This document shows positions 149 through 28,543 of a stretch of 64,000 bases of DNA, piece after piece. Source of the stretch: Parapedobacter defluvii (GTDB lineage Bacteria; Bacteroidota; Bacteroidia; Sphingobacteriales; Sphingobacteriaceae). The DNA lies in the NCBI RefSeq assembly GCF_014642075.1, contig NZ_BMIK01000008.1, positions 62,001 to 126,000 of the forward strand. Direction: 5' to 3'. The position numbers were made by a program, and so were the translations under genes. The notes below the pieces were generated by a model. That model did no database searches. It was not told the DNA's origin and saw nothing but the letters and a program-made list of their open reading frames with translations. The first letter of the stretch is position 1, and each line of letters begins with the position of its first letter.

Positions 149-179
149 TTGCATAATCTGAGCATTTTGAGTAAGTTTG
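149..179 (+). promoter_or_regulatory. Predicted Bacteroidota-type promoter of the GH20 gene
   Basis: A -33 TTG at 149-151 is separated by 20 bp from TAAGTTTG at 172-179, matching the Bacteroidota housekeeping promoter. It places transcription start just upstream of the ATG at 209 and argues against using the in-frame TTG at 149 as the start codon. Confidence 0.6.
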
Positions 180-208
180 TCTCAGATACACTAAAACAAA
201 CAGATCGC

Positions 209-2473
209 ATGACTCAATATGCACGCAGATTGGTATTGGGTTTGTTGGTGTTGTCGTCTATGGCGGTGATACCTGCCCTCGCTCAAAATCAGCTATCCCT
301 TATCCCGGAGCCTAATACCTTAGAAATTCACGAAGGAGAATTTGTATTTCCTTCGGTTACGCCGGTATACGCATTTGATGAATTTTCAGACGTCGCCTTG
401 TTATTGTCTGAGCATCCTTATGCACACTTCACGCCGGTTGAACGTATCAAATCTCATAAACGGATACCTGAAAATGGTGTAAGGCTCATTCGGGCGCGGG
501 AGGAAGATAAGCTTCCGGCCGACGCATACCGATTGGTGGTAGATACAGGAGGTGTCACGATTACAGCACATCAGCCTGCCGCAATTATCAATGGAATATT
601 GACACTATTGCAATTGGCATATACCCAGCCTGATGGCCGGATCTTGCCCGCCATGATGATTGAGGATAGGCCCCGTTTTGCATATCGCGGGCTCCATCTT
701 GATGTCTCTAGGCACTTCTATCCGCTATCGTTTCTTAAGAAGTTCATTGATCTGATGGCGCTCTACAAGTTCAATATGTTCCATTGGCATCTTACCGACG
801 GTGCTGGCTGGCGCTTGGAAATCAAGCAGTATCCCGAGCTTACCCGGAAAGCGGCTTGGCGCACACATGTAACATGGAAAGATTGGTGGCAAAACGGGAG
901 AAGATATTTAAATGAAGGCGATCCCAACGCAAGCGGCGGATATTACACGCAGAACGAAGCACGGGAATTGGTGGCCTATGCTGCGAGAAAAGGCATCACT
1001 GTTATTCCGGAGATTGAAATGCCGGGGCATTCCGATGAAGTGCTGGCTGTTTATCCTGAGTTATCGTGTTCCGGACAAGCATACCAACACGCTGAATTCT
1101 GTATAGGAAATGAGGAGTCATTTACGTTTCTAACCAACGTATTGAATGAAGTTGCCGATGTTTTTCCTTCGGAGTATATCCACATTGGTGGAGATGAAGC
1201 AGGTAAAGAATCGTGGAAGACGTGTCCCAAATGCCAGGCGTTAATGGAGAAAGAAGGGCTCAAGACGGTGGATGAATTGCAAAGTTACGCGGTAAAACGT
1301 ATTGACGCCTTTTTGAAAACGAAAGGGAAGAAATTGATTGGCTGGGATGAAATACTGGAGGGGGGAATTCCCGAGGGTGCAACGGTGATGAGTTGGCGTG
1401 GAGAGGAGGGAGGAATCCAGGCAGCTAACGCAGGTCACAATGTAATTATGACACCCAATTCACACCTTTATTTCGATTATTACCAAAGTGATCCGCGGAC
1501 CCAGCCCGAGGCTATTGGTGGTTATATTCCTTTGCGTAACGTCTACGAATATGAACCCATTCCCGCAGGCGTAGCCGCAGATAAAGTAATCCATATTTTG
1601 GGTGCACAAGGTAATATTTGGACCGAATATATGCCTACAACTGAGCAGGTTGAATACATGGCTTTTCCCCGTGCGTTAGCTTTAGCAGAGGTCGTGTGGT
1701 CCGATCCGAAGCAGCGGGACTGGAAAGATTTCAATGAGCGACTGCAGCAGCACTACAAGTTGCTGCAAAAGTTTCATGTCAATTATTACCGCCCGTCATA
1801 CCGGGTAGATATCGCGGTGCATTTTAATCCAGATACGTTGACCAATACGGTGTCCATGTCCACCGAACAATACGGGCCGGGTATCCGGTATACGACCGAT
1901 GGCAAGGAGCCAGATGCGAAATCGGCACTGTATACCGAACCGATCGAGCTATCGGTGCCTGCTACCGTGAAGGCGGCATACTTTGTGGATTCGGGTCGTG
2001 TTGGACCGGTAACGATGGCCAAGGCCGATGTTCATAAAGCCATTGGCAAAACCGTTTCTTACCAAACACCCTGGGATACCTATGCGGCGGAAGAGACCCG
2101 TACGCTGGTAAACGGAAGTAAAGGTGGGCAGCGGGCCGATGACGGTCAATGGCAGGGATTCCGCAACAATGTGGATGTAACCGTTGATTTTGAACGTCGT
2201 GAGGAATTGCATCGCGTAGCTGTGGATTTCCTGCAGGACCGAGCTGTAAATGGCTATCTTCCCGGTGAAGTGAAAGTATTGCTGTCTGACAATGGTAAAA
2301 ATTTCCGCGAAGCAGGCACCCTGGTAAATGATATATCTCCAGAAGAACGTTTCCCTGTGTCCAAGACTTTTGAATTCCAGTTCGATTCTCCGCAGACGGC
2401 CCGTTACCTGCGTATTGTGGCAACGAATGTACAGCATGAATTGTTACTTACAGACGAGGTGGTGGTGTATTGA
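209..2473 (+). CDS. Beta-N-acetylhexosaminidase, GH20 family
   Basis: This 754-residue exported enzyme should release terminal GlcNAc or GalNAc from glycans. It starts with a signal peptide (first about 26 residues, ending in ALAQ), then a GH20b-like N-terminal domain, then the GH20 TIM barrel with the DISRHF-like region (LDVSRHFYP) and the catalytic Asp-Glu pair in HIGGDEA (about residues 325-331). The C-terminal part has a chitobiase C-terminal-type segment (YTTDGKEP) and ends in a discoidin/F5-8C-like domain (RYLRIVATN). The frame extends to a TTG at 149, but a predicted promoter lies inside that extension, so ATG 209 is used. It is divergent from a probable sensor gene that may control it. 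The family is secure; substrate linkage is not known. Confidence 0.93.
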   Translation: MTQYARRLVLGLLVLSSMAVIPALAQNQLSLIPEPNTLEIHEGEFVFPSVTPVYAFDEFSDVALLLSEHPYAHFTPVERIKSHKRIPENGVRLIRAREEDKLPADAYRLVVDTGGVTITAHQPAAIINGILTLLQLAYTQPDGRILPAMMIEDRPRFAYRGLHLDVSRHFYPLSFLKKFIDLMALYKFNMFHWHLTDGAGWRLEIKQYPELTRKAAWRTHVTWKDWWQNGRRYLNEGDPNASGGYYTQNEARELVAYAARKGITVIPEIEMPGHSDEVLAVYPELSCSGQAYQHAEFCIGNEESFTFLTNVLNEVADVFPSEYIHIGGDEAGKESWKTCPKCQALMEKEGLKTVDELQSYAVKRIDAFLKTKGKKLIGWDEILEGGIPEGATVMSWRGEEGGIQAANAGHNVIMTPNSHLYFDYYQSDPRTQPEAIGGYIPLRNVYEYEPIPAGVAADKVIHILGAQGNIWTEYMPTTEQVEYMAFPRALALAEVVWSDPKQRDWKDFNERLQQHYKLLQKFHVNYYRPSYRVDIAVHFNPDTLTNTVSMSTEQYGPGIRYTTDGKEPDAKSALYTEPIELSVPATVKAAYFVDSGRVGPVTMAKADVHKAIGKTVSYQTPWDTYAAEETRTLVNGSKGGQRADDGQWQGFRNNVDVTVDFERREELHRVAVDFLQDRAVNGYLPGEVKVLLSDNGKNFREAGTLVNDISPEERFPVSKTFEFQFDSPQTARYLRIVATNVQHELLLTDEVVVY

Positions 2474-2526
2474 CGTATTCCTTTTTTTGAGAGATCAGTG
2501 TTCGGTTGGTTAAACGAGGAAAGTTT

Positions 2527-3579
2527 TTAACCGCCATGACCAATGTGGTTGTAATATTTTAGGTTTGATTTTATAACAATATCGATTGGAAGATAGCTTT
2601 TCTTGTTGATAGCCTTTTTTAGAATCAACAGGTCGTAAAATAACTGGATACCCGCATAGGCTTGTGTATAGGGTTGCTGCGAGATAAGAAAATCGATTAC
2701 GTCGTTCTTCAAATACTTTACATTTTCCTCAATCAGGTCATAACCAATTAGTATGTGATTTTTTTTTGGCGAAAACACCGGTGCTACCCGTTGAATACCG
2801 TTAGTCACGAATATTCCTTCAACCAGGGGACTGGCTTTGATTAATCCCGAAAGTTCAGTTTCTATGTGTTCATTGGCCAGCGTACTTTCATATTTTATGA
2901 TGGATCGTTGCTTTGATTTAAAGAATTCCTTGAAACCGTTTTCCCTGCTGGTGAAATGTAAGTGATTATCTTGCTCTTGCGTTAAGGAGATAATTAAGAT
3001 CGTTGATGAACCAGATACCGATTTATCCAGCAGTTCGGCAGCCAGGAACCCACTATCGAAAGAATGCTGGCCGATAAATGGAATATTTGGAAGTTCAGGC
3101 AACTGTGTGTCAAAGAATATGACGGGGATACCATTTCGTTTAAGTCGTTGCACGAACTTTACCGTTTCAGCCGCAAAAATGGGAACCATAAATACACCAT
3201 CGTAGTTGTTCTCCAAGATAGAGGCTGTTTGTTTCACAAACGCTTGTTTGTCATTTTGATGAAATCGGTGAACCTCGATCTGAAAACCGTACGGTTTAAG
3301 TTCATTCATAGCATCGGCAAAACCCCGCTCGTGCTCTTTCCAGTAAGGGATGTCAGGTGTGGCTTCAGGCAGCAAGGCAGCAATCGAATATTGCTTCGCC
3401 GATTTTAGGCGGCTGGCAAGGATATTTGGGGTATAACCCAGCTCTTCGATGGCTTTTAAAATCCGTTCTTCCGTCTTTTTCGAAACCCCTCCCCGATTGT
3501 TGAGTACTTTGTCTACAGGGCCAGTAGAAACACCCGCGTGAAGGGCAATATCTTTAATGCCAACAGGATTTTTTTTCAT
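2527..3579 (-). CDS. LacI-family transcriptional regulator
   Basis: A 350-residue regulator with an N-terminal LacI helix-turn-helix (about residues 5-50, with DIALHAGVSTGPVDKVLNNR followed by GGVSKK) and a periplasmic-binding-protein-like effector domain. The recognition-helix variant with VDKVLNNRG is the one common in Bacteroidota sugar-catabolic regulators. The gene diverges from the isomerase/oxidoreductase operon. Two operator-like palindromes lie in the gap and a third lies upstream of SusC, so it probably represses both units until a sugar ligand binds. ATG at 3579 is preferred over the GTG one codon upstream. A different short palindrome (3584-3593) just before the start could be an autoregulatory site, but this is weak. 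Confidence 0.92.
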   Translation of the reverse strand: MKKNPVGIKDIALHAGVSTGPVDKVLNNRGGVSKKTEERILKAIEELGYTPNILASRLKSAKQYSIAALLPEATPDIPYWKEHERGFADAMNELKPYGFQIEVHRFHQNDKQAFVKQTASILENNYDGVFMVPIFAAETVKFVQRLKRNGIPVIFFDTQLPELPNIPFIGQHSFDSGFLAAELLDKSVSGSSTILIISLTQEQDNHLHFTSRENGFKEFFKSKQRSIIKYESTLANEHIETELSGLIKASPLVEGIFVTNGIQRVAPVFSPKKNHILIGYDLIEENVKYLKNDVIDFLISQQPYTQAYAGIQLFYDLLILKKAINKKSYLPIDIVIKSNLKYYNHIGHGG

Positions 3580-3723
3580 CACAAACGATCGTTAATTGGC
3601 TAACCAGTACAAAGGTGAGCCGGTTAGAGGACACAAAAATACAAGTAAATTAATGATTTATATGAAAAAAAAGTTTGAAAATTTAGGTTTTCAAAATTTT
3701 ATATTTATTATTGCAACATAAAC

Positions 3724-3735
3724 GTGAACGTTCAC
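3724..3735. promoter_or_regulatory. Operator 1 for the LacI-type regulator
   Basis: GTGAACGTTCAC is a perfect 12-bp palindrome with the central CG typical of LacI-family operators, followed by TATT. The same core occurs at 3773-3792 and 10019-10036. A TATTATTG at 3706-3713 (one mismatch to the -7 box) lies just upstream, so the site would cover the transcription start. Confidence 0.72.
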
Positions 3736-3740
3736 TATTT

Positions 3741-3763
3741 AAAAGCGATTGATTCGCTTTTTT
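3741..3763 (+). terminator. Small hairpin plus T-run in the operon leader (possible attenuator)
   Basis: An 8-bp perfect stem (3741-3748 pairs with 3754-3761, loop TTGAT) ends in a run of six T. It looks like a weak intrinsic terminator but lies between the two operators and upstream of the first gene. It may attenuate the operon or may simply be an AT-rich spacer. Confidence 0.35.
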
Positions 3764-3772
3764 AACAAATCG

Positions 3773-3792
3773 AATAGTTAACGTTCACTATT
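3773..3792. promoter_or_regulatory. Operator 2 for the LacI-type regulator
   Basis: AATAGTTAACGTTCACTATT is a 20-bp palindrome with one mismatched pair, sharing the AACGTTCAC core with operator 1. The two centres are about 53 bp apart, close to five helical turns, which would suit cooperative binding or looping by a LacI-type dimer or tetramer. Confidence 0.68.
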
Positions 3793-3836
3793 TTTAAAAT
3801 TTAAGTTATTACTAACCAGTTTTTACAAGTTAAATT

Positions 3837-4691
3837 ATGAAAATCGGTATTGATAGTTACTGTTATCACCGACTGTTTGGAGAAGTATATCCCCAACAAG
3901 ATCACCCCGAACGATTATTATCTTTTGATGATTTTTTGCAGAAAGCTATCCAGCTACCCGTGGATGGTCTTTCACTGGAATCCTGTTTTTTTCCAAAGTT
4001 TGATACTTCGTATTTACGGGCAGTCAAAGAAACATTAGACGGTGCCGGGATGGATCGCGTATATGCTTGGGGGCATCCCGATGGGCTGGAGCGAGGAGAA
4101 AATCAGGCGGCTTATGACGAGATGTTGGCACACATTGAGTATGCCAGTCAGCTTGGTGCGGAGGTGATGCGGGTGGTGGGTAGCAGTCTCCGTTTCCGGT
4201 TTGAGCCCCATGGTCCGCAACTCGAAAAATTGGGCCAACAGTTTACAGAGGCAACCAAAATAGCAGAACGATACGGTATTAAACTGGCAGTTGAAAACCA
4301 TATTGATTATAACGCCGATGAAATCTTACAGTTGGTGCATCATGTAAATTCACCTTTTTTCGGAGTGAACTTCGACACGGGTAATTTTTTACGGGTTTTA
4401 GACGATCCGATCCAAGCCATGGAAAAACTAGCCCCTTACGTGTACGCCACCCACATCAAGGACCTACGCCCGGTCAAAGGAGTGTCCGTTAGTGAATGGT
4501 ACTTTTTCTCCTGTGTTCCAACCAATCAAGGATTGATAGATAACCGTAAACTAGCCCGGATACTTCATGACCATGAGTACCAAGGGTTTTTAGCTGTCGA
4601 AATCGACTTTCTTCATCCGGATTACAGCAATAAGGAAGAGGAGGTAGTGCATGAAAGTATCGCTGAACTGCGGAAGATCACAAATTTTTAG
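3837..4691 (+). CDS. Sugar phosphate isomerase/epimerase-like TIM-barrel protein
   Basis: A 284-residue cytoplasmic protein of the xylose-isomerase-like/AP-endonuclease-2 TIM-barrel family. The expected divalent-metal ligands are visible: Glu153 (VENH), Asp180 (FDTGN), His206 (THIKD) and Glu255 (VEID). Such proteins isomerise, epimerise or dehydrate keto-sugars and inosose-type intermediates; the substrate cannot be read from sequence. It is the first gene behind the two operators and is followed 11 bp later by a Gfo/Idh/MocA oxidoreductase, a pairing typical of oxidised-sugar or inositol catabolism. The exact reaction is unknown. Confidence 0.85.
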   Translation: MKIGIDSYCYHRLFGEVYPQQDHPERLLSFDDFLQKAIQLPVDGLSLESCFFPKFDTSYLRAVKETLDGAGMDRVYAWGHPDGLERGENQAAYDEMLAHIEYASQLGAEVMRVVGSSLRFRFEPHGPQLEKLGQQFTEATKIAERYGIKLAVENHIDYNADEILQLVHHVNSPFFGVNFDTGNFLRVLDDPIQAMEKLAPYVYATHIKDLRPVKGVSVSEWYFFSCVPTNQGLIDNRKLARILHDHEYQGFLAVEIDFLHPDYSNKEEEVVHESIAELRKITNF

Positions 4692-4702
4692 GGATTAGCA
4701 CC

Positions 4703-5860
4703 ATGAAGCAATTAAACATCGGCATCATTGGATATAAATTTATGGGGCGGGCGCATAGCAATGCCTGGAAGAAGGCATCGCTTTTCTTTGATATTCCGTT
4801 TCAACCGGTTTTAAAGGTAGCTTGTGGACGGCATCGGGATAGCCTGATGGAGTTTGCCAAGAAATGGGGATGGGAAGAAACGGAAACAGATTGGCGACGC
4901 CTTATCGAACGCGATGACATTGATGTCATTGACATTGCCACACCTCAACACCTGCATGCGGAAATCGCTATGGCAGCCGCAAAGGCAGGAAAGCATCTTT
5001 TTTGCGAAAAACCATTGGCCATGACAAGCGCAGAAGCTGAGACAATGTTGCAGGTATGCAAGCACAGTGGAGTAACACATTACCTGAATCACAACTATCG
5101 GCGCGTGCCGGCGATTGCTTTGGCCAAGCGAATGATTGCTGACGGGTTAATCGGGAATATCTATCATTGGCGGGCAGCTTATCAACAAGATTGGATTACC
5201 GATCCAAATTTTCCCCTCACCTGGCAGTTGCAACGCGAATTGGCACAAGCCGGACCCCAATGGGACCTCAATTCACATTGTGTGGATTTGGCGCATTACC
5301 TTGTTGGGCAAATCACTGACGTGACGGCCTTGACCAGGCGTTTTATTGATCAGCGGCCATTGGCCGTTGAAGGAGCAATGGGGAACCTAAAAGCTGAAGC
5401 TGCTGGCTATGGCATGGGTGAAGTGACTGTGGAAGACGCAGCACTTATGCTCGTCAATTTCGAAAATGGTGCCGTTGGATCGTTTGAAGCAACCCGGTTT
5501 GCCAATGGCCGTAAGAACAAGCTTTCTTTCGAGATTTACGGGAGCGAGGGAGCTATTACGTTCGATTTGGAACGGATGAATGAGCTGCAGTACTTTTCAA
5601 CCCGGGACCCGGATGGACTGAGAGGATTCCGCACATTACTCGCGACCGATGAAAACCATCCCTACATCAAACATTGGTGGCCTGCTGGACACATCATCGG
5701 TTACGAACATACTTTTATCCATGCCGCCGCAGATTTTGTAACGGCACTGGGTAGCGGCACGGCGATTAAGCCTGATTTTGCAGACGGTATCGCGATTCTG
5801 AAAGTACTCGAAGCCGGTCTGAAATCGGCAACTGAACGGAAAACTATACGCGTTGAATAA
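4703..5860 (+). CDS. Gfo/Idh/MocA-family oxidoreductase
   Basis: A 385-residue NAD(P)-dependent sugar or polyol dehydrogenase. The N-terminal Rossmann fold has the nucleotide-binding GIIGYKFMGRAH motif (from about residue 8) and the family's catalytic-site motif E102-K103-P104 (FCEKPLAMT). The C-terminal Gfo/Idh/MocA alpha/beta domain follows. There is no signal peptide, so it is cytoplasmic. It probably oxidises a ring hydroxyl or reduces the matching keto form of the sugar handled by the adjacent TIM-barrel protein. It lies 11 bp after that gene and 29 bp before the dioxygenase gene. The substrate is not predictable. Confidence 0.9.
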   Translation: MKQLNIGIIGYKFMGRAHSNAWKKASLFFDIPFQPVLKVACGRHRDSLMEFAKKWGWEETETDWRRLIERDDIDVIDIATPQHLHAEIAMAAAKAGKHLFCEKPLAMTSAEAETMLQVCKHSGVTHYLNHNYRRVPAIALAKRMIADGLIGNIYHWRAAYQQDWITDPNFPLTWQLQRELAQAGPQWDLNSHCVDLAHYLVGQITDVTALTRRFIDQRPLAVEGAMGNLKAEAAGYGMGEVTVEDAALMLVNFENGAVGSFEATRFANGRKNKLSFEIYGSEGAITFDLERMNELQYFSTRDPDGLRGFRTLLATDENHPYIKHWWPAGHIIGYEHTFIHAAADFVTALGSGTAIKPDFADGIAILKVLEAGLKSATERKTIRVE

Positions 5861-5889
5861 CTATCAAATACAGTCAAAAACAAAGATAA

Positions 5890-6786
5890 ATGAAAACATC
5901 ACTTAAAGACCAGTTCCTTACAGAAGGATATGTCATCATCGATGTATTAACAGATTTGGAAATCAGTCAGTTTAGGGTTCTTATGGATGCGTTGCTTAAC
6001 CCGGAGGTTAAAGCGGAGGATACGAAGAAGCACAGTTCGTCATTCCAACATTTGGGTGATGACCTGGCAGACTTCGGCCGGGAAGCACGACAATATTACT
6101 TTCATCTGCTTACCAAGGAAGGTACCGCACCCATTCTCCATGCATTTCACCATCCTATCATTTTAAAAGCTGTCGAGGAAATTATCGGCCCTGACTTGAT
6201 TATCAATAACGCCTCGATATTGGCGGCCAACGAAGGGACATCCTATTCACTGGGCTGGCACCGCGATGTGATCCAGATTCCCGAAGATGAAATAGCCGAT
6301 TGGCTTTTTTCGAAGGAGCGTTTCCATAATAGCGTGCAGATCAACTTACCATTGGTCGAAGAAAACTCCTTATGGATAGTGCCGAGGAGTCATAACCGTC
6401 CCAATACACCCGAGGAAAATGCGGCGTTTGCAGGTTCAAAACATTATGCTCCGATTGGCGCGGAGATGCCGGGGGGGATTCCCGTAACTCTCAAGGCCGG
6501 ACAGGCTGTTCTTTATAACAATAATCTGATACATAGAGGATACACGGAGACCATGAAAGTTCCGCGGCGAACCCTGCATATGGGCTATCATAGCGCGGCA
6601 TATCCGCCTACCTGGCACTTTTACCTGTTGAATGAGCAATTGCTTACGCCTTATTACATAGAAACCCTTAGTCCAACTATGCAACGTATGATCAAGGAAT
6701 ACCTGGCGTGCAGGAAAAAGTATCCGAACATGGCCGATACGTGGAAATGGGATTACAATTTTCCACATAAGCCAATCCACAATTGA
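5890..6786 (+). CDS. Phytanoyl-CoA dioxygenase (PhyH)-like Fe(II)/2-oxoglutarate oxygenase
   Basis: A 298-residue protein with the PhyH double-stranded beta-helix layout. The iron-binding facial triad is visible as His124-x-Asp126 (WHRDV) and His215 (LIHRG), and Arg/His residues follow where 2-oxoglutarate would bind. Relatives hydroxylate small molecules such as ectoine or fatty acyl-CoA. Membership of a sugar operon suggests hydroxylation or oxidative demethylation of a modified sugar or aglycone, but that is inference. It has no signal peptide. It is 12 bp upstream of the PQQ dehydrogenase gene, so probably co-transcribed. Confidence 0.85.
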   Translation: MKTSLKDQFLTEGYVIIDVLTDLEISQFRVLMDALLNPEVKAEDTKKHSSSFQHLGDDLADFGREARQYYFHLLTKEGTAPILHAFHHPIILKAVEEIIGPDLIINNASILAANEGTSYSLGWHRDVIQIPEDEIADWLFSKERFHNSVQINLPLVEENSLWIVPRSHNRPNTPEENAAFAGSKHYAPIGAEMPGGIPVTLKAGQAVLYNNNLIHRGYTETMKVPRRTLHMGYHSAAYPPTWHFYLLNEQLLTPYYIETLSPTMQRMIKEYLACRKKYPNMADTWKWDYNFPHKPIHN

Positions 6787-6798
6787 TTTCTCGGTCAC

Positions 6799-8916
6799 AT
6801 GCGGTTAATCATACTATTTGTTATTTCCATACTAGCGGTATGGGGTTGCCAATCGTCCGATACCTTTTCGGAATCTGATTGGGCGTATCCCGGGGGCAGC
6901 GGGGGGCAAACCAAATATTCGTCGTTGAAACAAATCAACAAATCCAACGTGGCCAATCTGGAAGTAGCATGGATATTTAATTCGGGAGTACCTTCAGGAA
7001 ACGTACAGATGAACCCGCTAATTGTGGGTGGCAAGGTCTATGTGACTACGCCACTGCAGGAGGTTATCGCCGTTGACGGCACTACGGGCAAACAGGTTTG
7101 GCGGTTTAATCCGGCCAGGAAGGATGAACAATTTGGAGGAATTAATCGGGGAATTTCCTTTTGGCGCAAGAAAGGAGAGCGCGAACGCATCTTTTTTACC
7201 AGTGGTGGATTTCTGAACGCCATATATGCCCAAGATGGATCACCGGTGCCTGAATTCGGGGATCAGGGTCGGATCTCGCTGAATGAAGGTCTGGTAAAAC
7301 CACCCGAAAAAATGGGAATCAGCTCACCGGGAGCACCGGTCATATTCGGTGATCTCGTAATTGTGGGAGCTATGACGTGGGCATCACCGGCGAATGTAAG
7401 CGCTTTTAACGTATACACCGGTGAGCGGGTATGGATTTTTCACACCATTCCTCAACCCGGTGAATACGGATATGAAAGTTGGGGGAATAAAGATTTTTGG
7501 AAAACAGGTGCCGGTGTGAATGTTTGGGGAGGTCTGAGCGTGGATGAGGAAAACGGAATGGTGTATTTTGCGACGGGCCAACCGAAAGATGATTTTTATC
7601 GGCCCGATAATGGAGGTGAACATCTCTTTGGCAATTCGATTGTGGCTCTTAATGCCAAAACAGGGGAAAGGCTATGGCATTACCAGGTGATACATCATGA
7701 TTTATGGGATTTGGACCTGCCCTGCGCTCCCATATTGGCCACACTCCGCAAAGACGGTAAGGAAATCCCTGGCGTTATACAATTGACCAAAACCGGTAAT
7801 GTTTTCATGTTTAATAGGCTTACCGGTGAACTTTTGTCCGACGTTGAGGAACGCCCCGTTCCAGTGAGCACATTACCGGGACAATACGCTTTTCCCACCC
7901 AACCATTCGTCAAATGGCCGGAACCTTTTTCAAAGCAGGTAGTTACCGCTGATGATTTGACAAACATTAGTGAAAAAGCGCACGCCGATGCATTGGAGCA
8001 GTTCAATCGTGCGGAAGCCGGATGGTATGTCCCTCCTTCGACCAAAGGTATTATTTACTACGGCATACATGGTGGCGCGGAGTGGGGGGGCGGATCCTAT
8101 GACCCCATTGAAAATGTGATGTACGTCAATTCCAATGAACTGGCTTGGCATATTGTCATGCGGGATATAAATGACGCAAATACCGCCGCTAATACTGGAG
8201 AACATACAAAGCAACATGCGGGCCGGAGTGTTTTTCTTTCTAGCGGATGTGCAAGCTGTCATGGTGCTGATCGCCAAGGATTGGGGGGGACACCGGTTTT
8301 GAGAAACCTTTCCGGGAAATATACCCAAAAAGAGGTCGTGGATATCATAAAAAAGGGTAAGGGTGCGATGCCACCCTTTGCGCATCTGCCAGAAGATGAC
8401 GTGCAACTGGTCGCGTCTTACCTTTTAGATATTGAAGTATCCGGTAAAGAACAAAAAGAATCAAGCAAGCCGTATTTTCGTTCTACGGGCTATAATAAGT
8501 TCCTCGATCAGCAGGGGTACCCGGCTACGGCACCTCCATGGGGGACCCTAAATGCAATCGACCTCGAATCCGGTAAAATAAAATGGAAGGTTCCCTTAGG
8601 CGAATACCCAGAACTAACAGCTCAGGGCATACCTATTACTGGAACAGAAAACTTCGGAGGCAGCATTGTCACTGCAGGTGGTTTAGTATTTGTAGGAGCC
8701 ACACGTGATGAGTGTTTCCGGGCGTTCGATAAAGATACAGGTAAGATGTTGTGGGAAGCCAAATTACCATTTGGAGGATTTGCTGTGCCAAGTACGTATC
8801 AAGTCAACGGGAAACAGTATGTGATCATCCCGGCCACCGGCGGCGGTAAATTGGGCACGCCGACAGGCGATGCTTATGTTGCTTTTGCCTTGCCAGCTAG
8901 CATCGTGAAGAAATAG
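6799..8916 (+). CDS. PQQ-dependent dehydrogenase lipoprotein with internal cytochrome c domain
   Basis: A 705-residue exported quinoprotein. A short lipoprotein signal ends at Cys17 (VWGC). Propeller-blade repeats with the tryptophan-docking pattern recur through the protein (for example GKQVWRF, GERVWIF, GERLWHY, GKIKWKV, GKMLWEA). A class I cytochrome c domain is inserted before the last blades, with heme motif C484-A-S-C487-H488 and probable distal ligand Met524. It should oxidise a sugar or alcohol in the periplasm or at the outer membrane and pass electrons through its own heme to the respiratory chain. No PQQ synthesis genes are in the window. Related proteins are annotated as glucose or alcohol dehydrogenases; the true substrate is unknown. 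Confidence 0.9.
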   Translation: MRLIILFVISILAVWGCQSSDTFSESDWAYPGGSGGQTKYSSLKQINKSNVANLEVAWIFNSGVPSGNVQMNPLIVGGKVYVTTPLQEVIAVDGTTGKQVWRFNPARKDEQFGGINRGISFWRKKGERERIFFTSGGFLNAIYAQDGSPVPEFGDQGRISLNEGLVKPPEKMGISSPGAPVIFGDLVIVGAMTWASPANVSAFNVYTGERVWIFHTIPQPGEYGYESWGNKDFWKTGAGVNVWGGLSVDEENGMVYFATGQPKDDFYRPDNGGEHLFGNSIVALNAKTGERLWHYQVIHHDLWDLDLPCAPILATLRKDGKEIPGVIQLTKTGNVFMFNRLTGELLSDVEERPVPVSTLPGQYAFPTQPFVKWPEPFSKQVVTADDLTNISEKAHADALEQFNRAEAGWYVPPSTKGIIYYGIHGGAEWGGGSYDPIENVMYVNSNELAWHIVMRDINDANTAANTGEHTKQHAGRSVFLSSGCASCHGADRQGLGGTPVLRNLSGKYTQKEVVDIIKKGKGAMPPFAHLPEDDVQLVASYLLDIEVSGKEQKESSKPYFRSTGYNKFLDQQGYPATAPPWGTLNAIDLESGKIKWKVPLGEYPELTAQGIPITGTENFGGSIVTAGGLVFVGATRDECFRAFDKDTGKMLWEAKLPFGGFAVPSTYQVNGKQYVIIPATGGGKLGTPTGDAYVAFALPASIVKK

Positions 8917-9015
8917 CACAACTATAGGGCGAGATCATGGTTAACATCGTAGAAAAGAATCAATCATTCGTACAATATCATTTGACAGAATTAGCTAACT
9001 AACTATAAATAACGT

Positions 9016-9966
9016 ATGGAACTAAAAAGAAAGGAACAACCGCTATTTACCAGCATGCACGGCAAACGGCTGATGACTTGGTTTTTTATATTCGCCGTTT
9101 TTGCGGCTGTGCCGCTGGCTGGTTTTAAGCTGCCGAAGGATCATCCCGTTAAAGACGTATTTGCCAAACAAAACCTTGCGGCTTGGTGTATAGTACCCTT
9201 TGATGCCAAACACCGTGGCCCAGAAGAACGGGCTAAAATGTTATCAGATCTGGGCATAACAAAACTTGCATACGATTGGCGCGAAGAACACATCCCCACG
9301 TTTGATGACGAATTACACGCACTCAACAAATATGGAATTAAGCTGGAAGCATTTTGGATGATGTCTGGCAACCATCCCGAAGACGATCCCTATATCCGGC
9401 AGATTTTTGATTTCATAGCGCGCAATAAGGTTAAAACCCAGATCTGGCTGTTAATGGGCGAATGGGAAGGCTTTGGCGATCTCAGCCAACACGATAAAGT
9501 TGAAGCTATGCGTAAGCCCATTGCATACATCGCAGCAAAGGCAGCCGCACTGGATTGTCAAGTTGCACTTTATAACCACGGGGGGTGGTTCGGTGAGCCG
9601 GAGAACCAACTTGAAATCATCAATGAGCTGAATCTCGAAAACGTCGGGATGGTCTATAACTTCCATCATGCACGTCTGCATCACGAGCGTTTCTCGACCT
9701 TTTTCCCTAAAATATTGCCGCACTTATTTGCGCTTAATATCGCAGGTTTAAAATCCGGTGTTACCGATCGGTTTTTTAGAACGGGTCAGGGAGATGTCGA
9801 AAAAGAGATGATCCGACAGGTTTGGAAGAGCAAATACCGAGGAACAATCGGTATCATCAACCACAATGAGAACGAAGATGCCGAAAAGGGACTAAGGGAT
9901 GAGATCGATGGACTGAAAAAAATCCTTGCGGAAATCGGGGACAAACGGGCGCTGGCAACCTATTAA
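9016..9966 (+). CDS. Exported TIM-barrel protein, sugar isomerase/epimerase-like
   Basis: A 316-residue protein with an N-terminal hydrophobic segment (about residues 20-38, TWFFIFAVFAAVPLAG) that looks like a signal peptide or anchor, followed by a xylose-isomerase-like TIM barrel. Beta-strand motifs such as IWLLMGEWEG, ALYNHGGW and MVYNFHHA resemble the family, but the metal ligands are less canonical than in the cytoplasmic homologue at the head of the operon. It follows the PQQ dehydrogenase after a 99-bp gap, so it could act on the oxidised product in the periplasm. An alternative start is the ATG at 9055. No catalytic activity can be asserted. Confidence 0.75.
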   Translation: MELKRKEQPLFTSMHGKRLMTWFFIFAVFAAVPLAGFKLPKDHPVKDVFAKQNLAAWCIVPFDAKHRGPEERAKMLSDLGITKLAYDWREEHIPTFDDELHALNKYGIKLEAFWMMSGNHPEDDPYIRQIFDFIARNKVKTQIWLLMGEWEGFGDLSQHDKVEAMRKPIAYIAAKAAALDCQVALYNHGGWFGEPENQLEIINELNLENVGMVYNFHHARLHHERFSTFFPKILPHLFALNIAGLKSGVTDRFFRTGQGDVEKEMIRQVWKSKYRGTIGIINHNENEDAEKGLRDEIDGLKKILAEIGDKRALATY

Positions 9967-10018
9967 CGTCAATGCCCACCTAAGCTTATTTATGAGCACA
10001 CACTACTGTTTTTTGCAA

Positions 10019-10036
10019 AATAGTGAACGTTGACTT
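10019..10036. promoter_or_regulatory. Operator 3 for the LacI-type regulator, upstream of susC
   Basis: AATAGTGAACGTTGACTT shares AATAGTGAACGTT with the consensus of operators 1 and 2 (AATAGTGAACGTTCACTATT), with the right half-site slightly degenerate. It lies about 120 bp before the SusC start, linking this SusC/SusD pair to the same regulator as the upstream operon. Confidence 0.68.
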
Positions 10037-10156
10037 TATGTAAACAAGAGGGTTTCGTTGCATAAAATTTAATTTTTTACTTCCGGTATTCATTGCTGGA
10101 TGGCACGTTATGCGATTTATCAATTATGAATAAAAACAAAAACAAATTATGAAACA

Positions 10157-13100
10157 ATGAAAACAAAGAAATTCAAACGTTATGTAATTCCCGCTTATTT
10201 GAGCCGCATTTGGCTTCTACTATTACCTATTTTATTGCTTTCCATAACTGCTAGTGCCCAGCATGTACTGACCGGTTTGGTGGTTGATGAGCGTGATGAA
10301 CCCCTGGCCAATGCCAGCGTGGTCATTAAGGGAAGCGAACGGAGTGTATTAACCGATGTGGATGGTAAATTTATCCTTGAAATTACAGCCCCCACAGACA
10401 CATTGTTGATTAGCTATGTTGGTTATTATCCACTTGAAGTTTTGACTGGGACCGACCGTGAGCGAAAATTTTCGATGACCATTGACGAAGAGCAGGCCAA
10501 ACTGGATGAAGTGACGGTGGTAGGTTTCGGTACACAGAAAAAGATATCTGTAACGGGCGCTATCTCCACGGTAGCTGTGCGGGAATTGGCTAAAACCAGT
10601 ACCCCATCACTCTCAAACGCACTAGGCGGTAGATTACCAGGCATCATGACAAGACAGTCAAGTGCCGAACCAGGATCCGACCAGGCACAGATATATATCC
10701 GTGGGATGGGTACCTGGGGAAACCGGGCACCCATGGTGCTAATCGATGGAGTGGAACGCAGCCTGGACAATATCAATGTACAGGAGATCGAAACCTTTTC
10801 CGTTTTAAAGGACGCTTCCGCTACTGCTGTTTATGGGGTCCGGGGGGCAAATGGGGTAATTGTCATCACTACAAAGAAAGGTGTGATGGGGCGGCCAAAG
10901 GTTGCTTTCCGGTCGGAATCAGCCTTGCTTCAACCCATTCGCCTGCCTAACTATATCAATGCAGTGGAATATGCGAGTTTAATGAATGAAGGTTTGGAGC
11001 ATGTCGGGCAGCGACCACGGTGGACCGACGAGCAGATCGGAATGTTTGGTAACGGCAGCGACCCTTATCTGTATCCGGATGTCAATTGGACAGAAGAAAT
11101 CATGCGTAAGCATACATACCAAACGATTAACAACCTGAATGTAAACGGCGGTAGCGAAATCGTACGATACTATGCCAATGCAGGGTATACGGATCAGAAC
11201 GGCATCTGGAAAAATGATCCGGCTAACACGTACAAGACAAATGTGCGGATGCGTCGGTACAATCTTCGCTCCAATGTGGATGTGAATGTAAGTAAAGATC
11301 TTGTGCTTGAGCTAGGTATTGCCGGTATTATCCAACAGGGCGATTTCCCGGCTACCGGATCAGATGCGTTGCTGGATGCAATCCGGGTTACACCGCCCAT
11401 TGCTTATAGCGCGAGGAATCCCGACGGAAGTCCCGGGGGTACGCCCACATTAATCGGGAATAATCCTTGGGGACTTGCCACACAGTCCGGCTATTCCGTA
11501 CACATGCATAGCAATGTACAGGGTACTTTATCTGCGAAATGGGATATGTCTACCTTCATAACCCCCGGCCTTTCGGTCAGCGGGCGGTTTTCATACGATC
11601 ATCATTATTCGGGCGGGATAAACAGGCATAAGTCTTTTGAAGTCAAATACTATACAGGTCAGGATGAGGAAACAGGTGAACCCCAATACACGGTGTTACG
11701 GGAAGAACAACCCATGAATTATTGGCTTTGGAATAATTCAAATAGGGCGATTTATTCGGAGGCCATTATCAACTACGAAAAGAGTTTAGGTAATCATAAC
11801 CTGTCTGGCATGATACTTTATAACCAGCGAGATTATATTAATATTACTGCTGGAACTTCAATCGATGGGCTGCCCTTTAGGCGGCAGGGTATTGCGGCAA
11901 GGGCCACCTACGGATATAGGAATACCTATTTTGCCGAGTTTAATATGGGTTATAACGGTTCGGAGAACTTCCCAAAGGGACAACGGTTTGGTTTTTTCCC
12001 GTCTATCTCCGGCGGGTGGTTAATTTCCAACGAACCATTCATGGAAAACATCAACTTCGTGAATTCGATGAAAATCCGCGGTTCATATGGACAAGTTGGT
12101 AACGATCAGATCGGTGGCCGCAGGTTTCTCTACCTTACTTCGATGAATGCGCGCACGGCACAGGGCTATCTCTTCGGCGATCAACAAACTTTTTGGCCGG
12201 GGATTGACGAAATGCAGATCGGTACGAATAATGTCACCTGGGAAGTTTCTACCAAGTCGAATGTTGGCTTTGACGTCAGCTTCCTTAGCAACATGATAAC
12301 TGTGCAGGTCGACGCGTTTCATGAACGGAGAGAGGGCATTCTCATCCAGCGCCGTACCATCCCCAATATGGCTGGTTTCAACCCCGGATCCATTCCTTAC
12401 GGAAACATTGGAATCGCCACAAACAGGGGTATTGAGGGTATGCTTGAGCTCAAACGCGTCAACAACGGTGGGGTTTATTATTCGTTCATGGGTAATTTCA
12501 CGTTTGCCCGAAGCAAGGTTGAGGAAAACGATGAGCCGATTCAGCGATGGGCATATCAATCGGCAAAAGGTCGTCCCATTGATCAACCTTTCGGTTTAGT
12601 AGCGCTTGGCTTTTTTGAAAATGATGACGAAATCGCGAACAGTCCTAAACAAATGTTTCAAGACTTGGTGCGACCCGGCGATATCAGATATAAAGACATC
12701 AACGAAGATGGGGTAATCGATAATTTTGATGCGGTGGCTATCGGCTATCCCCGTACTCCGGAAATCATGTATGGCTTTGGTGGTACCATAGCTTATAAAG
12801 GAGTGGATATGAGCCTATTTTTCAATGGAGCGGGGCGGACCAGTCTTTACCTAAACGGACCCAGTATCATGCCATTTATGAAAGGACAAGGTTCATATAA
12901 TATTCTCCGGGAATTTTATGATCATCGGTGGACTCCAGATAATATGGACAACGCGAAGTACCCTGCGGCAACAGATGACATCAATCCCAATAATTACCGG
13001 TTTAGCACAGCTTATCAGCGAAATGCGAGCTATATCCGACTACGCAATGCGGAAGTTGGCTACACATTTCCCACACAAATTAGTCACCGTATCGGCATCG

Positions 13101-13243
13101 AGCAGCTTCGGCTGTTTGTCAATGGAATGAATCTAATTACGTGGGATGATGTAAAAGTTATTGATCCCGAATCAAATGATGGTATTGGTAGCTACCCGCT
13201 TCAGCGGAGCATAAATTTTGGTATTCATGTAAATTTTAACTGA
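10157..13243 (+). CDS. SusC/RagA-family TonB-dependent outer-membrane transporter
   Basis: A 1028-residue outer-membrane receptor that imports oligosaccharides or glycosides, powered by TonB. A signal peptide (about 35 residues, ending ITASAQ) is followed by a carboxypeptidase-regulatory-like beta-sandwich (about 36-115), the plug domain (from about VTVVGFGTQKK) with the SusC signature ending YGVRGANGVIVITTKKG, and a 22-strand barrel ending in an aromatic Phe-x-Phe-like terminus (VNFN). It lacks the STN signalling domain present in the other SusC here, consistent with control by the LacI-type regulator rather than by anti-sigma signalling. SusD follows after 5 bp. Confidence 0.95.
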   Translation: MKTKKFKRYVIPAYLSRIWLLLLPILLLSITASAQHVLTGLVVDERDEPLANASVVIKGSERSVLTDVDGKFILEITAPTDTLLISYVGYYPLEVLTGTDRERKFSMTIDEEQAKLDEVTVVGFGTQKKISVTGAISTVAVRELAKTSTPSLSNALGGRLPGIMTRQSSAEPGSDQAQIYIRGMGTWGNRAPMVLIDGVERSLDNINVQEIETFSVLKDASATAVYGVRGANGVIVITTKKGVMGRPKVAFRSESALLQPIRLPNYINAVEYASLMNEGLEHVGQRPRWTDEQIGMFGNGSDPYLYPDVNWTEEIMRKHTYQTINNLNVNGGSEIVRYYANAGYTDQNGIWKNDPANTYKTNVRMRRYNLRSNVDVNVSKDLVLELGIAGIIQQGDFPATGSDALLDAIRVTPPIAYSARNPDGSPGGTPTLIGNNPWGLATQSGYSVHMHSNVQGTLSAKWDMSTFITPGLSVSGRFSYDHHYSGGINRHKSFEVKYYTGQDEETGEPQYTVLREEQPMNYWLWNNSNRAIYSEAIINYEKSLGNHNLSGMILYNQRDYINITAGTSIDGLPFRRQGIAARATYGYRNTYFAEFNMGYNGSENFPKGQRFGFFPSISGGWLISNEPFMENINFVNSMKIRGSYGQVGNDQIGGRRFLYLTSMNARTAQGYLFGDQQTFWPGIDEMQIGTNNVTWEVSTKSNVGFDVSFLSNMITVQVDAFHERREGILIQRRTIPNMAGFNPGSIPYGNIGIATNRGIEGMLELKRVNNGGVYYSFMGNFTFARSKVEENDEPIQRWAYQSAKGRPIDQPFGLVALGFFENDDEIANSPKQMFQDLVRPGDIRYKDINEDGVIDNFDAVAIGYPRTPEIMYGFGGTIAYKGVDMSLFFNGAGRTSLYLNGPSIMPFMKGQGSYNILREFYDHRWTPDNMDNAKYPAATDDINPNNYRFSTAYQRNASYIRLRNAEVGYTFPTQISHRIGIEQLRLFVNGMNLITWDDVKVIDPESNDGIGSYPLQRSINFGIHVNFN

Positions 13244-13248
13244 TAGTC

Positions 13249-15045
13249 ATGAAAAAAAGATATATAAAACACATTGTTTTACTGATTTTGGTTTCCGCGG
13301 TGTCCGCCTCTTGTGAGAAGGGGTTCTTAGACAAAGCACCAGATGAAGACCTCACCATAGACGATGTATTTGCGGAGCGGCAGTATGCGGAACGCTTTTT
13401 GACAGCGACTTATAATTACCTGCCAACGGAGATCGATTTTGCTGAAATACCCGGTAGAAACCCATTCGTGGGCGCATCGGATGATATGGAGATGTCATGG
13501 TTGAATCGTTTTTCACACCGGATGAATGGAGGTACATGGGGTCCAAATGATGTCCCCGGCAATGAACATTGGTCGATACCCTATCAAGCCATTCGAAGGC
13601 TGAATCTGTTCACGGAGAATATTACGCATACGCCTATGGATGAGCAGGTAAAGCGAACTTGGGTTGGGGAAGCGGAATTTCTGAAAGGCTTTTTCCATTT
13701 TCTATTGGTTAGGCTTTATGGACCGGTGCCTATCGTTGATCATTCCTTTCAACCCAATGACGATTTCTCGCTGTTAAAGCGAAACACATTAACCGAGTGT
13801 ATCAACTACATTGCAGGTCGATGCGATGAAGCGGTTGAACTTTTACCCATGACGGTACCAGCAGCCAGTAAAGGCAGGGCAACTGCTGCTGCGGCCTTAG
13901 CCTTGAAATCAAGGGCATTACTTTATGCCGCAAGCCCACTATTTAATGGTAATCCGGATTACGCTGATTTTGTCGATGCCGAAGGAACGAAGTTGTTTCC
14001 ATCCTATGATGGGCAGCTTTGGCAACGGGCTGCTGATGCGGCAAAGGCCAGCATCGAGCGCTCGGAAGCTGCGGGTTACCGGCTTTACCGCGCAGCAGGT
14101 AATGACCCCGTTCAGAACTATCAGCAAATTTTTACGGAGCGGCACAATCAGGAAATTCTCTTTGCCCGAAACCTGGGCGTTCATAGCTGGCAGGAAATGG
14201 GAGGTGCACCCAATAGCGAGGGTGGGTGGAGTGGTTTATGCCCGCTGCAACGGTTGGTTGATGCTTATGAAATGGCAGATGGCAGCACGCCGATAACGGG
14301 CTATGAATCGAATGGCCAACCCATTATCAACACCGTTTCGGGTTACCAAGAAACAGGTTATGCCAATGAAGCACACCCATCCGGGTATTATCCGGCAGGA
14401 ATAAGAAACATGTATGCCAATCGTGAACCCCGGTTTTATGCTACTGTAAATTACAACGGCGCGATGTGGCGGGGGAGACAATTGGAATTCTGGAATTCCG
14501 GTGCAGAAGGAAAATCAAAAGGTGGAACCGAGCTATATTCTGTGACCGGTTACCTGCTCAGGAAATTCATGGACGAGAACAATGTCAACATCCGGGAGGG
14601 GCGCTTTGTATTGAAAACGTGGGTCTATTTCAGACTTGCAGAGCAATATCTTAACTATGCTGAAGCACTTAATGAAACCCAGGGGCCTGTTGAGGCTGTA
14701 TATACCCACGTAAATGCGGTTAGGGACCGGTCAGGGCTGCCAGGTCTGCCAACAGGATTAAGCAAAGAGGAAATGAGGGAGAGAATACGTCACGAGCGGC
14801 GTATCGAGCTTTCTTTCGAAACCCATCGGTATTTTGACACCAGAAGGTGGTTAATTGCCGAAAAAACCAATAAGATTGACCTGTATGGAATGAATATCCA
14901 CGTTGGAAATTCACTAAAAGACGATGAATTCTATCAACGGACGTACCTTAAGTCTCGTGTTTTTGAAAAGAAACATTACCTATGGCCAATTGATCAGAAT
15001 ACCATTAATGTAAGCCCGTTGGTGGTTCAGAATCCTTTTTGGTAG
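13249..15045 (+). CDS. SusD/RagB-family surface glycan-binding lipoprotein
   Basis: A 598-residue lipoprotein: signal peptide with lipobox cysteine at residue 22 (SASC), then the typical SusD opening (GFLDKAPDEDLTIDDVF), TPR-like helices, and the conserved C-terminal helix motif RIRHERRIELSFE followed by RYFDTRRW. It should cap the adjacent SusC and bind the substrate at the cell surface. It is 5 bp downstream of susC, so co-transcribed and probably translationally linked. A strong hairpin terminator follows. Confidence 0.95.
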   Translation: MKKRYIKHIVLLILVSAVSASCEKGFLDKAPDEDLTIDDVFAERQYAERFLTATYNYLPTEIDFAEIPGRNPFVGASDDMEMSWLNRFSHRMNGGTWGPNDVPGNEHWSIPYQAIRRLNLFTENITHTPMDEQVKRTWVGEAEFLKGFFHFLLVRLYGPVPIVDHSFQPNDDFSLLKRNTLTECINYIAGRCDEAVELLPMTVPAASKGRATAAAALALKSRALLYAASPLFNGNPDYADFVDAEGTKLFPSYDGQLWQRAADAAKASIERSEAAGYRLYRAAGNDPVQNYQQIFTERHNQEILFARNLGVHSWQEMGGAPNSEGGWSGLCPLQRLVDAYEMADGSTPITGYESNGQPIINTVSGYQETGYANEAHPSGYYPAGIRNMYANREPRFYATVNYNGAMWRGRQLEFWNSGAEGKSKGGTELYSVTGYLLRKFMDENNVNIREGRFVLKTWVYFRLAEQYLNYAEALNETQGPVEAVYTHVNAVRDRSGLPGLPTGLSKEEMRERIRHERRIELSFETHRYFDTRRWLIAEKTNKIDLYGMNIHVGNSLKDDEFYQRTYLKSRVFEKKHYLWPIDQNTINVSPLVVQNPFW

Positions 15046-15062
15046 CCAAATTCGTCAATAAG

Positions 15063-15101
15063 AGAACGGAGACTCGATTGCTACAGTCGAGCCTCCGTTC
15101 T
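15063..15101. terminator. Bidirectional hairpin terminator
   Basis: A 15-bp stem (15063-15077 pairs with 15087-15101, one A-C mismatch, 9-base loop) lies between the converging SusD gene and the leftward lipoprotein gene. Both flanks are T-rich on the respective transcripts (TTACTT to the right, TCTTATT to the left), so it can serve both genes. Confidence 0.75.
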
Positions 15102-15126
15102 TACTTATGGCCATCTTCTGATTTGC

Positions 15127-16110
15127 CTATTTTCTTTTAGTGACTGCCAACAGATCAAATCCGTTAAACTGGAAGCCCACATCAAAGGTACCCGGCACCT
15201 CCCATCCGAGATTCATTCCCGAAATCTGGAAATCTTCAAAAAATGAACCGGTTAGGTAGCCCCGTTCCTTTGCCAGTTTTAATGCGTCGACAATCAATGG
15301 ATAGATGTCCTTTTCTAGGGTAATCCAATTTCCCGATTGAAACGACCCTTCCATGAAGTCAGCGCTCCCGGCACTGTATATGAATTTGCCGGTTGCATCG
15401 CCTTTGCCCACATCCTGGGCGGCATATAGCGGAATCTCCTCATAACGGTAGTCGTAAAAGGGGATACCGAACCAAAGATAGTCCCCGTAATGTGCCGAAT
15501 TGGGGTTCAGGTCCTGCACAGTTATAAAAAGTTGGAATTGGGCGGTATGCAAGCCGGGATCGAAGTCACCTTGATTCATCTTCATTTCAGCTTTGGTCAG
15601 TTGACCCTTAAATTTCAGTACCAGTCCCTCCAGGTCTTTTACATAAGGTTTTTCAGGAAAGGCCTGTTCAATGAGCAGGTGTGGCCATGCCTGGTTTGGT
15701 TGTCTCGGGGATTCATACTCGGCCGACGCATATACATCCATAGCCACGCGTATGTTATCTCCGTCTTTTGCAAAAGCGATGGCTTTTCCGTCGTTGGCAT
15801 AGCTAACCCATCCATCGTTTTTTATTTCCTTATCTCCTTCTTCGAGTTCGTATTTTGTTCCCCATTCGGCCATCTCCCATATGGGAGCTAAGGTTGTGGT
15901 ACCAAAAGGCTGTATGGTTCCGGGTGATGGCGCGTCAGCACGCTTGCGCACCAGTCCCTGTTCAAAAGAACGGTCTCCGAGCAGCGATAATGTATCGTAT
16001 TGGCTCGTTGTTTCCGTTGGTTTTTCTACCCCGCCACCGGCGGCGCATGACCCGGTTAGACAAGCTCCCCCTATTCCCAACCAAGTAACGAATGTTTTAA
16101 TTTGCTTCAT
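15127..16110 (-). CDS. Uncharacterised lipoprotein of the second SusCD locus
   Basis: A 327-residue lipoprotein with lipobox cysteine at residue 22 (LTGSC) and then a Gly-rich, low-complexity linker. The mature part is rich in predicted beta strands and aromatic residues (for example YLWFGIPFYDYRYEEIP). I do not recognise a family. It is the last gene of the leftward unit sigma-FecR-SusC-SusD-TIG lipoprotein, 48 bp after the latter, and takes the place where surface glycan-binding proteins or enzymes usually lie. It could bind carbohydrate at the surface or be a jelly-roll hydrolase; no catalytic motif was identified. Confidence 0.75.
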   Translation of the reverse strand: MKQIKTFVTWLGIGGACLTGSCAAGGGVEKPTETTSQYDTLSLLGDRSFEQGLVRKRADAPSPGTIQPFGTTTLAPIWEMAEWGTKYELEEGDKEIKNDGWVSYANDGKAIAFAKDGDNIRVAMDVYASAEYESPRQPNQAWPHLLIEQAFPEKPYVKDLEGLVLKFKGQLTKAEMKMNQGDFDPGLHTAQFQLFITVQDLNPNSAHYGDYLWFGIPFYDYRYEEIPLYAAQDVGKGDATGKFIYSAGSADFMEGSFQSGNWITLEKDIYPLIVDALKLAKERGYLTGSFFEDFQISGMNLGWEVPGTFDVGFQFNGFDLLAVTKRK

Positions 16111-16158
16111 CTATTTACAATTCTATTTTTAATGATTATTTATCCTATCGGTTTCGTC

Positions 16159-17118: not shown

Positions 17119-17160
17119 TTGTCGTGATATATTCAATTGTTCAACTTCAATCCGAAGGCA

Positions 17161-18918: not shown

Positions 18919-18938
18919 TTTTTTTATCCCAAAATCCA

Positions 18939-22373: not shown

Positions 22374-22446
22374 TACGTTTGTTCGTTTAGATAAGTTAAT
22401 TAACTGGTTTTAATACGCTTTTTATTACTGGTTTTTTCTGAACGGT

Positions 22447-22473
22447 AAGGGGAGTGTTCGCAGCACTTCCCTT
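22447..22473. other. Hairpin in the FecR-SusC gap
   Basis: A 10-bp stem with one G-T wobble (22447-22456 with 22464-22473, 7-base loop) sits in the 171-bp gap between fecR and susC. It has no T-run on the transcribed strand, so it is more likely a leader structure, or a partial barrier that sets susC expression apart from fecR, than a full terminator. Confidence 0.4.
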
Positions 22474-22544
22474 GTTCATCTTATGGGGTCACATGTTCAT
22501 CTCATATTTTTGCATTTTTAAGTTATCTATTGGTTATTTTACGA

Positions 22545-23702: not shown

Positions 23703-23753
23703 TTCCGTAATTGGTTTTTTAGTATAGACACCAAAACGGGTTGGACGGGTAGG

Positions 23754-27219: not shown

Positions 27220-27274
27220 TTATCCCGTGTTTGATGTTGTAGATTTCTAACACTACGATAAATAAGCTACTACA

Positions 27275-28477: not shown

Positions 28478-28543
28478 TGAACCTCGTTGTCAGTCCGAAG
28501 TAATATTCAGGATGGAATTTTAACTTATTTACAATAAAATACG

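Follow-up and report, generated by a model that had tools for sequence, protein, structure and literature searches.

A LacI-controlled TIM barrel, Gfo/Idh/MocA and PhyH gene unit in Parapedobacter defluvii with a possible role in oxidative catabolism of modified sugars

Bacteroidota sugar catabolism is mostly interpreted as hydrolysis by glycoside hydrolases, so what does a regulated SusC/SusD locus process when its own unit encodes a dehydrogenase and an oxygenase? This question is raised by five consecutive plus-strand genes at positions 3837-9966 of a 64,000-nt stretch (the window) of contig NZ_BMIK01000008.1 from the 5.8 Mb genome of Parapedobacter defluvii. They encode TIM1 (a cytoplasmic xylose-isomerase-like TIM barrel), a Gfo/Idh/MocA dehydrogenase (Gfo), a PhyH-type Fe(II)/2-oxoglutarate (2OG) oxygenase, a pyrroloquinoline quinone (PQQ) dehydrogenase, and TIM2 (an exported protein of the TIM1 fold). 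An earlier note on this DNA had named these five families and the adjoining SusCD pair and proposed an oxidative pathway; the five open reading frames, their common strand, their Pfam assignments, and the position of SusCD all bear out what it observed. The interpretation favored here, which stands about evenly between right and wrong, is a LacI-controlled pathway that would break down a predicted modified sugar or glycoside oxidatively in the cytoplasm, with a probable 3-keto intermediate, a step catalyzed by an oxygenase, and a predicted order of reactions.

Conservation and regulation of the core genes

TIM1, Gfo, and PhyH occur in this order in 13 genomes, the window included, which represent six or more families of Bacteroidota plus a single Verrucomicrobiota metagenome-assembled genome (MAG). 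The carriers are Parapedobacter (two), Adhaeribacter (one), Mucilaginibacter (three), Desertivirga (two), Pleomorphovibrio, Algibacter, and Spirosoma (one each), a Bacteroidetes MAG, and a Chthoniobacter MAG; the count includes one Mucilaginibacter with TIM1 cut by a contig end, and TIM1 of the Bacteroidetes MAG is split into two reading frames (L019:798-1682), which points to gene decay or to an error in the sequence. A scan with the PhyH alignment, restricted to a pair of short peptide patterns and bound to miss diverged members, covered 84,980 species genomes and yielded 14 loci, and a plasmid search with PhyH added one on a Spirosoma plasmid, its remaining matches being distant. Among 390 genomes of the order, TIM1 was found in seven, the Gfo clade in the same seven, and PhyH in those seven plus one more (hypergeometric probability of TIM1 within PhyH 3e-14, kinship ignored). 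Because the order is kept in 13 genomes, and TIM1 and Gfo fall in identical genomes of the order, the arrangement is not due to chance; the loss of order among relatives that the earlier note had named as a refutation was not seen. Distance matrices of the core proteins correlate (r 0.66-0.75), which shared descent also predicts. The core is rare, with one carrier among 395 genomes drawn from the phylum at a strict threshold, and among 289 genomes of the phylum of the Chthoniobacter MAG, PhyH was found in that MAG alone, where core and flanks share a G+C content of ∼62%. This rare and patchy distribution suggests horizontal spread.

The LacI operators noted earlier ahead of the unit are real: a 22-bp motif, AAATAGTnAACGTTnACTATTT, has three matches in the window compared with 0.01 expected from shuffles, a pair upstream of TIM1 and a single copy upstream of SusC. 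The motif is common to eight genomes. Parapedobacter pyrenivorans has two copies ahead of an operon of a major facilitator superfamily (MFS) carrier and TIM1 and one ahead of SusC, Algibacter has two between LacI and the operon, and both Niastella genomes also carry it between LacI and the operon; it lies at the operon start in Pleomorphovibrio, ahead of GH5 in Spirosoma, and as a perfect copy near the LacI start in Mucilaginibacter G765. LacI orthologs with 51-60% identity lie divergently beside these operons at loci L009, L015, L016, L018, L021, and L086. In the rest of the genome, sequences close to the 12-bp core occurred at three places, all lacking the 22-bp motif, and operator searches allowing three mismatches returned noise, with fewer matches than a reversed-pattern control. 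Intergenic gaps of 11, 29, 12, and 99 bp make the five-gene row compatible with a single transcript. A 190-bp gap carrying its own operator separates TIM2 from SusC, which is probably co-regulated with the operon through this third copy; SusC and SusD are 87% and 84% identical to partners at the equivalent place in P. pyrenivorans.

Other genes around the core vary. Among the 13 genomes, the PQQ gene is present in four, TIM2 in six, an MFS carrier in four, GH5 in five, and ThuA in five, and the core also occurs without accessory genes, for example, in Adhaeribacter. The PQQ dehydrogenase and TIM2, counted as members by the earlier note, lie outside the conserved core, and oxidation outside the cytoplasm, which it had raised as a possibility, is therefore not a core feature. 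With SusC/SusD, degradative enzymes, and one regulator, the locus has the makeup of a polysaccharide-utilization locus. The claim that it lacks a glycoside hydrolase stands for the unit in the window but fails elsewhere, as five other genomes have GH5 and ThuA genes, and in one case a GH140-like gene, next to the core. The nearest matches of this accessory, glucanase-type GH5 are 8bn7, 4hty, and the 5a8m series, the last of which is presumably a Saccharophagus endo-beta-glucanase (GH5_26); the enzyme leans towards glucose-based substrates in the GH5-bearing genomes and gives no identification for the unit in the window.

Properties of the encoded enzymes

PhyH is the most conserved member, with 64-82% identity. 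Its PF05721 match is weak (E 1e-9, 39 bits against a cut-off of 22), and the residues of the Fe(II)/2OG family, namely the HxD...H iron triad and the 2OG-binding Arg (H124-x-D126, H215, and R226), are invariant in 13 sequences, with a motif spacing that is presumably like that of human PHYH. Two Niastella genomes and Mucilaginibacter G765 have PhyH under the LacI and operator described above, with a gene for an exported protein following it; this protein, here called P685, is 685-703 residues long and 84-94% identical among the three, and TIM1 was not found in the Niastella genomes. Because these genomes pair LacI, operator, and PhyH with P685 instead of TIM1-Gfo, PhyH emerges as the invariant part of the regulon. 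P685 had no match in NCBIfam or the PDB, and in Pfam a sub-threshold match to PF03633, the GH65 C-terminal domain (E 0.01). Its WAND and GDATWQGAGDRGD stretches faintly suggest an (alpha/alpha)6 glycosidase, possibly of a new family, and the G765 module has GH3, GH31, GH39, GH95, and arabinofuranosidase genes as neighbors.

Gfo combines PF01408 and PF02894 with an EKP motif (E102-K103-P104) and a catalytic His (H192), matching E103 and H193 proposed for the levoglucosan dehydrogenase LgdA. Its strongest NCBIfam match is levoglucosan dehydrogenase (LGDH) NF052479, at 390.6 bits against an equivalog cut-off of 650, and it is 44% identical to LGDH 6a3f. L-glucose/scyllo-inositol dehydrogenase is among its nearest solved relatives, with LGDH closer than the inositol dehydrogenases. 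In a 27-protein tree, the core Gfo proteins group together with 100/100 support and separately from the LGDH clade, whose members among the proteins compared are 70-87% identical to 6a3f; by sequence, Gfo is placed in a sister clade of levoglucosan 3-dehydrogenase and not within it. Since this enzyme is the best named relative of Gfo, the 3-keto chemistry that the earlier note cites for known Bacteroidota pathways is plausible here. Of the non-core relatives whose gene neighborhoods are known, the nearest (Priestia, Paenibacillus, and Nonomuraea records, 47-50% identity) sit in LacI-Gfo-ThuA-Gfo or sugar ABC-Gfo-TIM operons, which look sugar-catabolic. A levoglucosan-type operon was also seen on a Klebsiella pneumoniae IncR plasmid (L036:4083-14070), with LacI, an LGDH-like protein (71% identical to 6a3f), two TIM barrels, a second Gfo, and a sugar ABC transporter.

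TIM1 carries E153, D180, H206, and E255, invariant in an alignment of 10 genomes and presumably the metal ligands of metal-dependent PF01261 isomerases and epimerases, making it a candidate eliminase, epimerase, or dehydratase. Its best NCBIfam match is the inosose dehydratase IolE (47 bits, cut-off 290 bits). TIM2, modeled with the PF01261 fold (pLDDT, the predicted local distance difference test, 84), has Y186, N215, N241, and I281 at the four ligand positions in a profile alignment to TIM1, the first three being invariant among homologs. Having lost all four ligands, TIM2 is probably not a metal-dependent isomerase and is possibly a periplasmic binding protein or a metal-free enzyme. In P. 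pyrenivorans, TIM2 is tandemly duplicated (L009:12975-14859), with copies 49% and 76% identical to that of the window. The PQQ dehydrogenase is a lipoprotein, with a lipobox, in which a cytochrome c with a CxxCH haem motif (CASCH at 484) is inserted into a PF01011 propeller of glucose/quinate type lacking the membrane domain; it scores 436 bits against TIGR03074, below the cut-off. A search for PqqC gave zero matches in 13 of these genomes and likewise in control genomes, and PQQ may need to be imported.

Table 1. Coordinates of the regulator, operators, and genes of the unit in the window, and of the P685 module at other loci
Feature	Position	Strand	Remarks
LacI-family regulator	2527..3582	-	PF00356 + PF13407; divergent from operon
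LacI operator copy 1	3719..3740	.	TAAACGTGAACGTTCACTATTT
LacI operator copy 2	3772..3793	.	GAATAGTTAACGTTCACTATTT; 0 mismatches to 20-bp core
TIM1, cytoplasmic xylose-isomerase-like TIM barrel	3837..4691	+	PF01261
Gfo/Idh/MocA dehydrogenase	4703..5860	+	PF01408 + PF02894
PhyH-type Fe(II)/2-oxoglutarate oxygenase	5890..6786	+	PF05721
Lipoprotein PQQ dehydrogenase, inserted cytochrome c (accessory)	6799..8916	+	PF01011, PF13442
TIM2, exported PF01261-fold protein (accessory)	9016..9966	+	PF01261, weak
LacI operator copy 3	10018..10039	.	AAATAGTGAACGTTGACTTTAT; upstream of SusC
SusC-like TonB-dependent receptor	10157..13243	+	Pfam
SusD-like lipoprotein	13249..15045	+	Pfam
LacI-operator-PhyH-P685 module	L015:9995-12994, L016:9995-12993, L086:9640-12655		Niastella and Mucilaginibacter

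Just upstream of LacI, a GH20 beta-hexosaminidase with an F5/8 type C domain (149-2473, its listed TTG start probably too early) has no AAATAGTnAACGTTnACTATTT-type operator nearby. Downstream, on the minus strand (15127-24344), a second SusC/SusD pair, a TIG-domain protein, a 327-aa protein with no Pfam match, a FecR-type anti-sigma factor, and an extracytoplasmic function sigma factor form a separate polysaccharide locus, which is probably served by the MBL-fold, GH39-like, GH42-like, and DUF4838/GH67N-like proteins that follow (24356-30373).

Proposed pathway and rival explanations

The order in 13 genomes, the shared operator, and the relatives of Gfo support the earlier idea of a conserved, co-regulated, oxidative sugar-type unit. 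In the favored interpretation, SusCD, downstream of the co-regulating operator, would import the substrate across the outer membrane. Cytoplasmic Gfo would then oxidize a ring hydroxyl, most likely at C3 as in levoglucosan dehydrogenase, and the resulting keto-sugar would be the substrate of metal-dependent TIM1, with beta-elimination or epimerization as the likeliest reaction, both roles being suggested by family. As the invariant step, PhyH may hydroxylate a C-H bond of the sugar itself or of a substituent, so that an O-linked group is released or the ring is opened. On a simple reading, TIM1-Gfo and P685 would be alternative ways to free the product handled by PhyH, and the PQQ dehydrogenase and TIM2 would form an optional periplasmic front end. 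A bolder proposal, tentative and less probable than the general scheme, is that PhyH commits a modified sugar to breakdown and receives it either from TIM1-Gfo, as a cytoplasmic pair that cleaves glycosides oxidatively, or from the exported P685, the two being interchangeable under one LacI regulon, as the core of an undescribed pathway that reaches across Bacteroidota into Verrucomicrobiota. A search of openly accessible literature turned up no paper describing a unit that joins PhyH to SusCD or to a polysaccharide locus, which does not prove novelty.

Several points weigh against cytoplasmic oxidative breakdown as set out above. The AlphaFold2 model of PhyH is poor (pLDDT 55), probably due to an alignment of 12 sequences that are all 64-82% identical to the first, and fold search confirms the 2OG oxygenase superfamily only, with matches tied between sugar-acting and non-sugar enzymes; the best PDB sequence match (E 2e-4) leaves PhyH with no close characterized relative. 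The C3 specificity of Gfo is extrapolated across 44% identity, and the pocket reads GALGDIATH in LGDH and GPQWDLNSH here. In addition, the window lacks the MFS gene seen in four relatives, and the hydrolases beside the core vary between genomes.

A sharper form of the favored explanation, unlikely but the strongest of the rivals, is oxidative demethylation of an O-methylated sugar or cyclitol, in which PhyH would hydroxylate the O-methyl group and Gfo and TIM1 would act on the freed cyclitol like the dehydrogenase MocA and the TIM-barrel protein MocC. The IolE match of TIM1 and the kinship of Gfo to scyllo-inositol/L-glucose dehydrogenase point this way, as does rhizopine catabolism, which uses the same three enzyme kinds, yet TIM1 falls far under the IolE cut-off, Gfo is closer to LGDH than to inositol dehydrogenases, inositol genes are absent from the unit, and the rhizopine oxygenase is of another class. 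It is improbable that the unit is a Bacteroidota version of the levoglucosan (anhydrosugar) pathway, even though LGDH is the top match of Gfo and TIM1 shares a Pfam family with LgdB1 and LgdB2. TIM1 is 23% identical over 188 residues to the presumed LgdB1 of Arthrobacter plasmid L034, compared with 46-54% among LgdB1-like proteins, leaving no LgdB1 homolog beside Gfo, and PhyH has no place in that pathway. Gfo is the single gene of its kind between LacI and SusD, so that LgdC is missing, as it is from about half of LgdA loci (PMC10066097), and the unit has no ABC importer. Membership was ruled out by these absent partners, the score of Gfo below the cut-off, and its separate clade.

Also improbable is a non-catabolic role, in which the three enzymes would modify a sugar or cyclitol that goes into a secondary metabolite, glycan, or osmolyte; structural matches of PhyH do include HygX and EvdO1, sugar-acting tailoring enzymes of antibiotics, but LacI control, SusCD, MFS, GH5, and ThuA neighbors, and a patchy presence typical of catabolic islands speak for catabolism, and the unit holds no glycosyltransferase or export genes. 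Doubtful to the same degree is initial oxidation of the sugar in the periplasm by the PQQ dehydrogenase, with the remaining enzymes processing its product. The PQQ gene and TIM2, both with export signals, share the operon here and in three relatives; nine of the 13 core genomes, however, lack the PQQ gene, and the failure to find PqqC counts against this role as far as a search that also came up empty in its control genomes allows. If cytoplasmic oxidative breakdown is correct, Bacteroidota would have an aerobic means of using sugars that are out of reach for hydrolases, and proteins annotated 'phytanoyl-CoA dioxygenase' would gain a role in carbohydrate metabolism. The unit is an apparently mobile three-enzyme set, and the effector of its regulator would show what the substrate is.

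Comparison with known systems

The Bacteroides 3-keto-glycoside pathway (BT2157-BT2160) likewise belongs to Bacteroidota and oxidizes sugars with Gfo/Idh/MocA enzymes, but it relies on a DUF1080 hydrolase, a domain that a Pfam scan did not find in any gene of 149-16110; the unit in the window has an oxygenase, and Gfo scores 45.8 and 25.2 bits against the BT_2158 and BT_2159 models, far under the cut-offs of 750 and 650. The levoglucosan dehydrogenase pathway (LgdA-LgdB1-LgdB2-LgdC; PMC7676230, PMC10066097) shares a Gfo/Idh/MocA 3-dehydrogenase and a PF01261 TIM barrel in a sugar-regulated operon. It differs in the clade of its dehydrogenase, in the TIM barrel, and in having LgdC and an ABC transporter, whereas the unit described here adds PhyH, SusCD, the PQQ dehydrogenase, and TIM2.

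Rhizopine catabolism, which involves mocBA, mocC, and the ferredoxin-oxygenase mocDEF (PMC10107442), also brings a dehydrogenase, a TIM-barrel-type protein, and an oxygenase into one catabolic set, but it is alphaproteobacterial, with a ferredoxin-dependent oxygenase and the regulator MocR in place of the Fe/2OG enzyme and LacI seen here. In the sulfoquinovose dioxygenase pathway (SqoD-SquF), SqoD is an Fe/2OG oxygenase that attacks the sugar and releases its substituent, followed by a reductase (PMC12890257); this gammaproteobacterial alkanesulfonate dioxygenase system, described with no PF01261 partner, was compared with the unit by its published description. By this comparison, the levoglucosan route, rhizopine catabolism, and the sulfoquinovose dioxygenase route are the closest logical precedents for the TIM1-Gfo-PhyH core.

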